Shown in pieces: positions 3,927-7,310 of a stretch of 64,000 nt of DNA. A model generated the notes under the pieces. The model was not told where the DNA came from. It saw only the letters and a program-made list of their open reading frames with translations, and ran no database searches. The translations under genes were made by a program, and so were the position numbers. Each line of letters opens with the position of its first letter. The first letter of the stretch is position 1. The stretch comes from Desulfurobacterium atlanticum (GTDB lineage Bacteria > Aquificota > Aquificia > Desulfurobacteriales > Desulfurobacteriaceae): NCBI RefSeq assembly GCF_900188395.1, contig NZ_FZOB01000008.1, forward strand, positions 14,391 to 78,390, in the 5' to 3' direction.

Positions 3927-4655
3927 TCACCCTTTTTTCTCAAGCCTTTTTACAACACTTTCAAAATCTATAGTGCCCTCATACACGGCCTTTCCTGTAA
4001 TAGCCCCCACGACATTAGGAATTTCTGCAAGTCTAAAAACGTCTTCTTCTCTCGCAATTCCACCAGAAGCTATAACCGGTTTTTTTACACTCCCTGCAAA
4101 CCGCTCAACCTCTTCAAAGTTCGGTCCTTCCAGAGTACCATCTCTTGAAATATCTGTATAGACAAAACCCCATATAGGCTCATCCTCATACTTTTTAGCA
4201 AACTCAACTGCTTTTAACTCTGTCTTTTCAACCCATCCACGAGTAGTCATATAACCATCTTTAGCATCCACTCCAAGCACCATACCATCAGGAAAAACAT
4301 CTATCATCTCTTCAAAAAGCTCAGGATTTTCAACAGCAACCGTCCCAACAATTATACGGTCAACACCTGCATCCTTTAAAGCTTTCACAGCTTCTACCGT
4401 TCTCACTCCTCCACCAAACTGAACAGGAATAGAAAGTCTTTTAACTATCTCCTCCACTATTTTTATATTTTTAGGAACTCCTTCAAAAGCCCCATCAAGG
4501 TCAACAACATGAAGCCTTGTTGCCCCTTTATTCTGCCACAAAAGAGCAGCTTCAACAGGATTATCAAAATACTCCTTTACAGCATCAGCCCTTCCTTTAT
4601 AAAGCCTAACGCACTTCCCATCTTTTATATCAACTGCAGGTATAAGCTCAAACAT
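3927..4655 (-). CDS. hisA: HisA, ProFAR isomerase of histidine biosynthesis
   Basis: 1-(5-phosphoribosyl)-5-[(5-phosphoribosylamino)methylideneamino]imidazole-4-carboxamide isomerase, a (beta/alpha)8 barrel of 242 aa. Catalytic Asp9 is in LIPAVDIKDGKCVRL and the second Asp is in YTDISRDGTL; phosphate-binding loops are QFGGGVRT and ASGGIA. The other histidine genes in the window (hisZ, hisG) are far away and on other transcripts, so the pathway is dispersed. Lies between dapB (9 bp) and rimO (3 bp). Confidence 0.95.
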   Translation of the reverse strand: MFELIPAVDIKDGKCVRLYKGRADAVKEYFDNPVEAALLWQNKGATRLHVVDLDGAFEGVPKNIKIVEEIVKRLSIPVQFGGGVRTVEAVKALKDAGVDRIIVGTVAVENPELFEEMIDVFPDGMVLGVDAKDGYMTTRGWVEKTELKAVEFAKKYEDEPIWGFVYTDISRDGTLEGPNFEEVERFAGSVKKPVIASGGIAREEDVFRLAEIPNVVGAITGKAVYEGTIDFESVVKRLEKKG

Positions 4656-4664
4656 TGAATCCTC

Positions 4665-5447
4665 CTAAATACCTAAAACATCAAACATACTGTAAAATCC
4701 ACAAGGCTTTCCATAAATCCACTTTGCCGCTACAACAGCTCCTCTTGCAAAAGTTTCTCTGCTTGTAGCCCTGTGTGTTAACTCTATCCTTTCACCAAAA
4801 GTTGCAAAATAAACGGTATGGTCACCTACAACATCGCCCATCCGTGCAGCAAGCACACCTATCTCTTCAGAACTTCTTTCACCAACAAAACCTTTCCTCC
4901 CAAAAACAAAAACATCTTCAGGATTTCTATCAAGGGTTTTTGCCACTATTTCAGCAAGTCTCATAGCAGTCCCGGAGGGAGCATCCTTTTTGAATCTGTG
5001 ATGAATTTCAAAAATTTCAACATCGTAATCTTTATCCTTCAAAGCTTTCGTCACTTCTTCAACTATCCTGAAAAGAATGTTTACCCCAAGACTCATATTC
5101 GGAGAAAAAAGCAGGGGAATTTTCTTCCCTGCAGCTTTAAGCTTTTCCATCTCCTCACTTGAAAAACCGGTAGTCCCTGTAACAACGGCAACCCCTTCAG
5201 CAACAGCATCTTCCACAAGGGTTAAAGTAGCACAGGGAACAGTAAAATCTATAACAACATCAGGTTTATCTTTAATCTCTTTCAAAGAACCAACAAACTT
5301 TAAATTTTCATCAAACGGTTCTCCCAATAAGTCGGACTCCGGATTTTCAATAACTCCTACAAGCTCCATATCTTCATTCTCTTTCACAAGAGAGGCAATG
5401 AGCCTACCCATTCTCCCATTTGCACCGTTAACAGCTATCTTTATCAT
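4665..5447 (-). CDS. dapB: 4-hydroxy-tetrahydrodipicolinate reductase DapB
   Basis: Second lysine/diaminopimelate-specific step: NAD(P)H reduction of the DapA product. 260 aa, normal length. N-terminal dinucleotide-binding loop NGANGRMG; catalytic block IHHRFKKDAPSGTA with the His pair, Lys and PSGTA loop; TGTTGF motif. Its start overlaps the stop of the globin-PsiE gene by 4 bp, suggesting translational coupling, and it stays linked to dapA across that inserted gene. Confidence 0.95.
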   Translation of the reverse strand: MIKIAVNGANGRMGRLIASLVKENEDMELVGVIENPESDLLGEPFDENLKFVGSLKEIKDKPDVVIDFTVPCATLTLVEDAVAEGVAVVTGTTGFSSEEMEKLKAAGKKIPLLFSPNMSLGVNILFRIVEEVTKALKDKDYDVEIFEIHHRFKKDAPSGTAMRLAEIVAKTLDRNPEDVFVFGRKGFVGERSSEEIGVLAARMGDVVGDHTVYFATFGERIELTHRATSRETFARGAVVAAKWIYGKPCGFYSMFDVLGI

Positions 5448-6382
5448 AACTCTCCCCTTTTATACTCATACCATTTAACTATTCCATATACTATACCAAG
5501 TATGAAAATAAGCGCTCCTATTCCAAGCTTAAAATCTATTGGTTTATCGTGCTGGAGAGAAAGAACAAGCGCTTCCCTGATGGTAGCAGCAAGGGCAACA
5601 CTTACAAAAGCACTTACAGCAAGTTCTCCACCCATCATAAACTTTATCTCACTGTTAAGAAGCTCAAGAACCGTCCAGAGAATCAAAAGGTCGCCAAGAG
5701 CAGCTATCAATCCATGAGTTAAATCTCCGCTAAACAGATGCATCACATCCTGAACAAACAGCCCAACCACAACCATACCTACAACCATCAATCCCAAAAT
5801 TATCGCCACATCCATAACAAAAGCAAACTTTTTGGAAAATCTAATAACAAACTTCTCTGCAGGATCTGCATCTATAAACGTTCTCATCTCATGGTCTATA
5901 TAAAAAGAAAGCATTACACTTAAATGAAGGTCAAGAAGCTTTGAGAACGAGCGGATGTGTTCCTCCACACCACTACAATCTTTACCCATCTTCTCACTTA
6001 CAACAGACACTATCCTTTTTGTGCAAAATCTCCTTACAAAGTTCATCATAGCAACTATAAGATTCGGGGGGATTCCTGCCTCTGCATGCACCCTTGCTAT
6101 TTTAAGGATATAAGTAAGATACTCAGAATCATACTTTCCTGTAAAAAGCATTTCATACCAGTGGATAACTTCTCTTCTTACTCTTCGATTATACTCCTCT
6201 TCACTTATAAACTTTGTAGCCTCCTCACACCTCATAAGCTGATTTAAAAAAGCATCCGCAAACTCTTCTTTATATTCAAGAAGATATTTTCCAATCTCTT
6301 TAAGGTTGTTAAAATCTTTTTCTCTTAACTCAAGCTGATAAAGAAGTTTTTCTATATCAGAATAGCTCACATACACACCCAT
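5444..6382 (-). CDS. protoglobin-type haem sensor fused to a PsiE-like membrane domain
   Basis: 312 aa. Residues about 5-165 are helical and resemble the sensor globin of globin-coupled sensors and protoglobins; the block IARVHAEAGIPPNLIVAMMN places His99 where the proximal haem ligand sits in this family (typically H-x-x-x-G-[IL]-P-P). Residues about 183-305 carry four hydrophobic segments, including LGDLLILWTVLELL and AATIREALVLSL, the pattern of PsiE (phosphate-starvation-inducible membrane protein E). It has no kinase, GGDEF, MCP or DNA-binding output domain. A strong GGAGGTGAT site inside the end of dapA drives it, and it overlaps dapB by 4 bp. A haem-bound O2/NO/redox sensor acting through the membrane domain is inference; PsiE has no established biochemical activity. 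Confidence 0.7.
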   Translation of the reverse strand: MGVYVSYSDIEKLLYQLELREKDFNNLKEIGKYLLEYKEEFADAFLNQLMRCEEATKFISEEEYNRRVRREVIHWYEMLFTGKYDSEYLTYILKIARVHAEAGIPPNLIVAMMNFVRRFCTKRIVSVVSEKMGKDCSGVEEHIRSFSKLLDLHLSVMLSFYIDHEMRTFIDADPAEKFVIRFSKKFAFVMDVAIILGLMVVGMVVVGLFVQDVMHLFSGDLTHGLIAALGDLLILWTVLELLNSEIKFMMGGELAVSAFVSVALAATIREALVLSLQHDKPIDFKLGIGALIFILGIVYGIVKWYEYKRGEL

Positions 6383-6383
6383 C

Positions 6384-7256
6384 TTATATCACCTCCATCT
6401 TCTCAAGAATCTGCTTTATTTTCGCTTCCTTATCAGCGGAGGTCGGACAAAGGGGTAATCTAAACTCCTTCTCCATCCTTCCCATAAAGGAAAGAGCCGT
6501 TTTAACAGGAATTGGATTTGTATCTATGAACATAATTTTGTGAAGAGGATAAAGAGAAAGATGAAGGTTTTTAGCTGTTTCAACATCACCTTCAATAAAC
6601 GCCTTATACATCTTAACCATCCTGTCAGGAACTATGTTGGCAGTCACAGAAATTACCCCTTTAGCACCTACAGAAAGTAGAGGATAGAAAGTTAAATCAT
6701 CTCCGGACAATACTTCAATCTTATCACCGCAAAGGTTAACTATTTCTGAAGCAACATTTGTACTTCCTGTAGCCTCTTTAATTGCAACAACATTTTCTAT
6801 TTCAGAAAGTCTTGCAACAGTTTCAGGAAGCATATTAACACCTGTTCTTCCTGGAACATTGTAGAGAACAATAGGAATAGAAACAGCATCCGCTATTGTT
6901 TTAAAATGAAGAAAAAGCCCCTCCTGATTAGGCTTGTTGTAGTAAGGAGTTATAAGAAGAGCTCCATCCGCTCCAGCCTTCTCTGCGTATTTTGTAAGTT
7001 CTATAGCTTCCTTCGTTGAATTTGAGCCGGTTCCGGCAATAACTTTTACCTTTCCTTTTGCCAGCTCAACAGCAAAAGCTATAACCTCTTCATGCTCTTG
7101 ATAAGAAAGAGTTGCTGACTCACCAGTAGTTCCACAGGGAACGATTCCGTCAACTCCATTTTCTATCAGAAAGTGGATATGCTTTTTCAACGCTTCCCAA
7201 TCAATATTTCCATTTTTAAAAGGTGTAGGTATGGCAACATAGATTCCTTCAAACAT
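6384..7256 (-). CDS. dapA: 4-hydroxy-tetrahydrodipicolinate synthase DapA
   Basis: Condenses pyruvate with aspartate semialdehyde, the committed step to diaminopimelate and lysine. TIM barrel of 290 aa. Schiff-base Lys is in VAIKEATGS near residue 161; VPCGTTGESATLS holds the Thr pair, and YNVPGRTGVN the catalytic Tyr and substrate Arg. Start set at ATG 7256: the GGAGGA site lies 5 nt upstream, while the in-frame GTG one codon earlier is too close to it. First gene of the six-gene minus-strand operon; the 146-bp gap to thrC must hold divergent promoters. Confidence 0.95.
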   Translation of the reverse strand: MFEGIYVAIPTPFKNGNIDWEALKKHIHFLIENGVDGIVPCGTTGESATLSYQEHEEVIAFAVELAKGKVKVIAGTGSNSTKEAIELTKYAEKAGADGALLITPYYNKPNQEGLFLHFKTIADAVSIPIVLYNVPGRTGVNMLPETVARLSEIENVVAIKEATGSTNVASEIVNLCGDKIEVLSGDDLTFYPLLSVGAKGVISVTANIVPDRMVKMYKAFIEGDVETAKNLHLSLYPLHKIMFIDTNPIPVKTALSFMGRMEKEFRLPLCPTSADKEAKIKQILEKMEVI

Positions 7257-7310
7257 CACTTCCTCCAGAAGTAATTTAAAATAAAATTAAACCGAACAAG
7301 TTATTTGTGA

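Follow-up and report, generated by a model that had tools for sequence, protein, structure and literature searches.

What does a putative haem sensor joined to a membrane domain do in the middle of a lysine biosynthesis cluster? The question is raised by a stretch of 64,000 nucleotides from Desulfurobacterium atlanticum, a heat-loving bacterium; we call this stretch the window, and positions are counted from its first letter. A sequence-only reading had placed there, between dapA and dapB, a gene for a haem-globin sensor domain fused to a PsiE-like membrane domain, and had regarded the pairing as an unusual one. PsiE is a very widespread family, but to our knowledge no activity has been established for it.

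We confirmed that the protein consists of a sensor globin followed by a PsiE membrane domain. The Protoglobin profile matches with an E value of 2.3e-22 and 80.2 bits (cut-off 25) and the PsiE profile with an E value of 4.5e-18 and 66 bits (cut-off 23.9), so that both of the proposed domains lie far over the Pfam cut-offs at the residues given in Table 1; NCBIfam holds no model that fits the fusion protein. The four membrane segments that had been proposed are backed by hydropathy and by the predicted model, and a kinase, cyclase or chemotaxis module is absent, in keeping with the earlier claim that the fusion carries no known output domain. The window genome has a single copy of Protoglobin and a single PsiE domain, both within this gene. 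Gene order bears out the location inside the dap (lysine) cluster, and the coordinates agree with a 1-bp gap between dapA and the fusion (dapA ends at 6384) and a 4-bp overlap, ATGA, between the fusion and dapB (which starts at 5447). A strong ribosome site, GGAGGTGAT, lies upstream of the fusion ATG. Two congeners give 90 nucleotide differences, of which 76 fall at third codon positions, with 9 amino-acid changes, indicating a real gene under strong purifying selection. The gene downstream of dapB we take to be hisA, from its sequence and from knowledge of the family.

Table 1. Features of the globin-PsiE locus in the window, with the positions of BLUF-PsiE genes elsewhere.
Feature	Position	Strand	Basis or remark
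Globin-PsiE fusion gene	5444..6382	-	312 aa, ATG start, TGA stop; ORF and translation, Pfam, congener comparison
Sensor-globin domain, residues 8-166	5885..6361	-	PF11563; Foldseek vs 5ohf/2w31/1or6
PsiE domain, residues 193-304, four membrane helices	5471..5806	-	PF06146; model helices
His99 codon, predicted proximal (F8) haem ligand	6086..6088	-	Falls on the F8 His in alignment to sensor-globin structures
Glu240 codon (TM2)	5663..5665	-	Invariant in 57/57 fusions; Glu or Asp in BLUF-PsiE
Arg269 codon (TM3)	5576..5578	-	Invariant in 57/57 fusions; 21/22 diverse PsiE domains
Ribosome-binding site GGAGGTGAT	6388..6396	-	Within dapA 3' end; direct sequence reading
dapA (dihydrodipicolinate synthase), upstream neighbour	6384..7259	-	Pfam DHDPS E 1e-104
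dapB (dihydrodipicolinate reductase), downstream neighbour	4665..5447	-	Pfam DapB_N and DapB_C
Presumed hisA, directly downstream of dapB	3927..4655	-	ORF; synteny in relatives
BLUF-PsiE loci	L116:1620-2501; L117:1620-2501; L118:1986-2867; L148:474-1355; L128-L132	+; +; -; -;	Nitrospinota, Nitrospirota, Proteobacteria

An AF2 model built with 57 sequences (mean pLDDT 84) predicts how the two halves are joined. A single long helix leads out of the cytosol into the membrane and is followed by three further membrane helices (174-218, 221-249, 256-276 and 282-311), with no separate output domain. Structure prediction had been suggested as a check on the globin assignment, and the globin half of the model does have the sensor-globin fold (target TM about 0.9): in Foldseek comparisons with the solved domains of AfGcHK, GsGCS and HemAT, target TM ranged from 0.81 to 0.93 and rmsd from 1.3 to 2.3 A. 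Against 5ohf, 2w31 and 1or6 the target TM was 0.86-0.93, and against 5ohf and 2w31 alone 0.89-0.93.

The supposed rarity of the pairing did not survive the genome survey that had been proposed alongside it. A genome-wide scan yielded 62 loci, spread over Aquificota, Nitrospinota, Nitrospirota and a few other groups, and a class-wide search of relatives gave matches to the whole fusion or to parts of it in 47 of the 54 good genomes. The fusion is present in about 29 of the 77 Nitrospinota genomes, and an open frame of ~300 residues ending in PsiE in about 50 of the 198 from Nitrospirota. Thus the fusion is widespread across these three phyla. We ruled out a mobile element, having found zero copies in the plasmids and viral contigs searched. 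Some stand-alone PsiE proteins resemble the PsiE half of the fusion (L119 in Aquificota, L120 in Nitrospinota and L094 in Anaerospora), which suggests that the globin was either lost or acquired at a later stage. In two genomes from other lineages, the matches (L028 and G076:C190:35686-36588) cross an in-frame TAA, possibly through decay or an assembly error.

Which part of the protein carries the response? The strongest evidence that it is PsiE comes from proteins in which two unrelated sensors sit on one membrane domain. In Nitrospinota there are BLUF-PsiE proteins of 294 residues, with BLUF (E 6e-30) ahead of PsiE (E 4e-37), and Nitrospirota and at least 5 of the 299 Proteobacteria also have BLUF-PsiE-like proteins. 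They resemble the globin-PsiE proteins in having the sensor in front, PsiE behind and an equal length, but a flavin blue-light sensor replaces the globin, and their PsiE half belongs to a different branch of the PsiE family. Since BLUF, an unrelated sensor, is fused to PsiE at the equivalent place, PsiE is the constant part, and it appears to behave as an output module to which different sensors can be fitted. An acid in TM2 and an Arg in TM3 are common to globin-PsiE, BLUF-PsiE and nearly all stand-alone PsiE, and Glu245, like Glu240 and Arg269, is present in 57/57 fusions. In the open-access literature searched, we found no work linking PsiE with a globin or BLUF in such fusions. There is perhaps an even chance that PsiE acts generally as a membrane effector gated by signals, placed behind interchangeable cytosolic sensors: a haem globin (sensing NO/O2 or redox), BLUF (sensing blue light) or nothing at all. 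If this is true, a natural, light-switchable BLUF-PsiE would make the long-uncharacterised activity of PsiE directly assayable.

The stand-alone members of the PsiE family share the Pfam domain, the TM2 acid and the TM3 Arg with the fusion but have no cytosolic sensor. Stand-alone PsiE is under the control of PhoB and CRP in Escherichia coli (PMC4415409), accompanies genes for heat and oxidative stress (PMC7685784, PMC7010813) and appears together with membrane and envelope genes in the Bacillus YrkP regulon (PMC10128005). For the PsiE half, modelled alone, neither sequence nor fold comparison turned up a convincing relative of known structure, and Foldseek gave no significant match. The PsiE half reached a Z score of about 10 to Orai (127 residues) and Vtc1 (103 residues), but unrelated helical bundles score as high; such a score lies under what helical bundles attain by chance, and we did not take the Orai/VTC likeness as evidence. 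Kinship with DUF202/VTC (Pfam E 0.78) was also dropped, the two DUF202 proteins in 12 genomes being too few for a profile test. Because there is no clear match to a solved fold, a conductance of PsiE is a guess.

Altogether, we consider it probable that the protein is a membrane-anchored globin-coupled sensor, in which a haem globin for a diatomic gas (likeliest NO) or for redox acts via PsiE as its output. In this scheme the cytosolic globin domain, presumably as part of a dimer, would bind haem, most likely through His99, and would respond to a diatomic gas, most probably nitric oxide, or to the redox state of the haem. The long helix, unbroken in the model, would carry the signal to the four-helix PsiE domain, and PsiE would itself be the direct output in the inner membrane. 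The likeliest output would be a change in the state of the membrane, for example in small-ion or proton conductance, or a function as stress effector or scaffold, and it may be set by the conserved Glu240/Arg269 pair.

The neighbours of the fusion in one phylum point to nitric oxide. At 11 of the 23 Nitrospinota fusion loci, a truncated haemoglobin gene lies within about 3.2 kb on the same strand. With about 46 truncated haemoglobins in roughly 67 Mb of genome, about 0.2 such neighbours would be expected by chance, although the 11 loci are not independent, because the linkage is seen in Nitrospinota alone and the loci share ancestry. A gene for a two-CBS protein is present at 7/23 loci, in six cases on the same strand and no more than about 50 bp away, and the 23 loci also include ScdA/YtfE-type genes (four), single-domain globins (two) and NnrS (two). 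ScdA/YtfE and NnrS are nitric-oxide response proteins. The Nitrospinota loci with such clusters are L058, L062, L064, L065, L066, L069, L071, L076, L080, L081, L086 and L088. The linkage to NO genes was not seen in Aquificota or at the 20 Nitrospirota loci; a CBS gene adjoins 3 of the 20 Nitrospirota fusions. PF03460 (the sulfite/nitrite reductase family) had no match in the window genome, a result that says little about NO metabolism. The BLUF-PsiE proteins and the Nitrospinota neighbourhood strengthen the case for PsiE as a putative sensor-gated membrane module. Two unrelated sensors in front of PsiE, together with NO-related genes nearby in one phylum, make a hitherto uncharacterised domain testable as a signalling part.

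The same neighbourhood can, however, be read in another way. Truncated haemoglobin, ScdA/YtfE and NnrS neighbours suit nitric oxide detoxification equally well with sensing, and no adjacent downstream signalling partner is conserved across lineages. The protein might then be a membrane-tethered haem enzyme or scavenger, such as an NO dioxygenase, an NO reductase or a superoxide generator, with PsiE mainly an anchor near respiratory complexes. We regard this as unlikely, since the globin belongs to a sensor lineage and a light sensor, which has no detoxifying role, is fused to the same PsiE domain. Among relatives PsiE is also strongly conserved, above the globin half, which would be unexpected for a mere anchor.

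The haem pocket is altered in the window genus. His99 is present in RVHAEAGIPP, as had been claimed, and corresponds in alignment to the proximal (F8) His of sensor globins with solved structures. Among the 57 aligned fusion sequences, 56 have the proximal His, 54 have Tyr B10 and 47 have His at E7, and His-Tyr occupies positions 107-108 in 55 to 56. Of these pocket residues, the window protein keeps the proximal His99 alone, with Leu46 at B10, Val68 at E7, and Asn107 and Leu108 in place of His-Tyr. Two congeners also keep His99 and lack both Tyr B10 (Phe or Ser instead) and His-Tyr (Asn-Leu instead). Tyr B10 is typical of O2 sensors and is not required for membership in the globin-coupled sensor family. 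With Tyr B10 and His-Tyr missing in the window genus, the haem pocket may bind differently, and ligand preference has probably been altered in this genus. Loss of Tyr B10 would argue against tight O2 binding and would leave NO, CO or redox as the candidate signals. The globin has an insertion of ~30 residues before the last helix (after residue ~132) in all other Desulfurobacteriaceae genera (L004-L019), and the window genus is without it. A more distant relative, a metagenome-assembled fusion from Aquificota (L041:5974-6918, + strand), has Phe in place of the proximal His and is possibly a haem-free version.

These replacements could also mean that gas sensing has gone from the window genus. 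The globin would then sense haem redox or haem occupancy, or it would be a structural domain free of haem that controls PsiE via its dimer state. Apart from the shared loss of Tyr B10 and His-Tyr in the window species and its two congeners, this reading can draw on the complete loss of the proximal His in L041 and on the precedent of RsbR of Bacillus subtilis, a known haem-free sensor globin (PMC4476040). We think it improbable all the same, given that the window species and both congeners retain His99 and that the gene is under strong purifying selection. Moreover, haem proteins in general do not need Tyr B10 to bind NO and CO.

That the gene serves lysine or diaminopimelate supply, for instance by coupling cell-wall precursor synthesis to redox state, is very improbable, for although the dapA-fusion-dapB order holds at all Desulfurobacteriaceae loci with flanks reaching both genes, and the overlapping gene ends suggest translational coupling, the fusion adjoins no dap genes at any of the loci with flanks compared outside this family. 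Its neighbours there are cysS-ubiE, bioW-surE, a polysaccharide deacetylase, globins and others. Since the dap synteny is confined to Desulfurobacteriaceae, the position goes back to that family and says little about function, and we dropped a link between the haem sensor and lysine synthesis.

The preferred reading, that of a membrane-anchored globin-coupled sensor with PsiE as its output, can be set beside the known sensor globins. The best solved globin match to the family profile is GsGCS of Geobacter sulfurreducens (PDB 2w31; E 2.7e-43), well ahead of the others. In a globin-domain tree the GsGCS globin nests in the globin-PsiE clade with support of 0.975 and 0.967, and it is 43-45% identical to the globin domains of Nitrospinota fusions. 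A YREEE linker signature is common to the end of the GsGCS globin and the globin-PsiE fusions. The two differ at E11, where GsGCS has the haem-binding His66 of its bis-His haem and the window protein has Val72; E11 is Ile, Leu, Val or Phe in 57/57 fusions, and the GsGCS-type His in 0/57. A review describes GsGCS as signalling to a transmembrane protein (PMC3500211). The structure of its globin is credited in two later accounts to Pesce et al. 2009 (PMC4476040, PMC4686822), and the PDB entry covers only the 162-residue globin part. From the clade position of 2w31, the YREEE linker and the transmembrane signalling given in the review, we read the architecture of the fusion as the GsGCS type, and we strongly infer from the sequence comparisons that the C-terminal half of GsGCS is PsiE. 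The soluble globin-coupled sensors (HemAT, AfGcHK, DosC and globin-RsbR) share the globin fold and the proximal-His block with the fusion, but their outputs are cytosolic chemotaxis, kinase, diguanylate cyclase and STAS domains, whereas that of the fusion would be a four-helix membrane domain. The fusion is best filed as a member of the transmembrane globin-coupled sensors, with an output domain that can be named as PsiE. This naming would supply the probable missing output domain of GsGCS, the globin half of which was solved in 2009.
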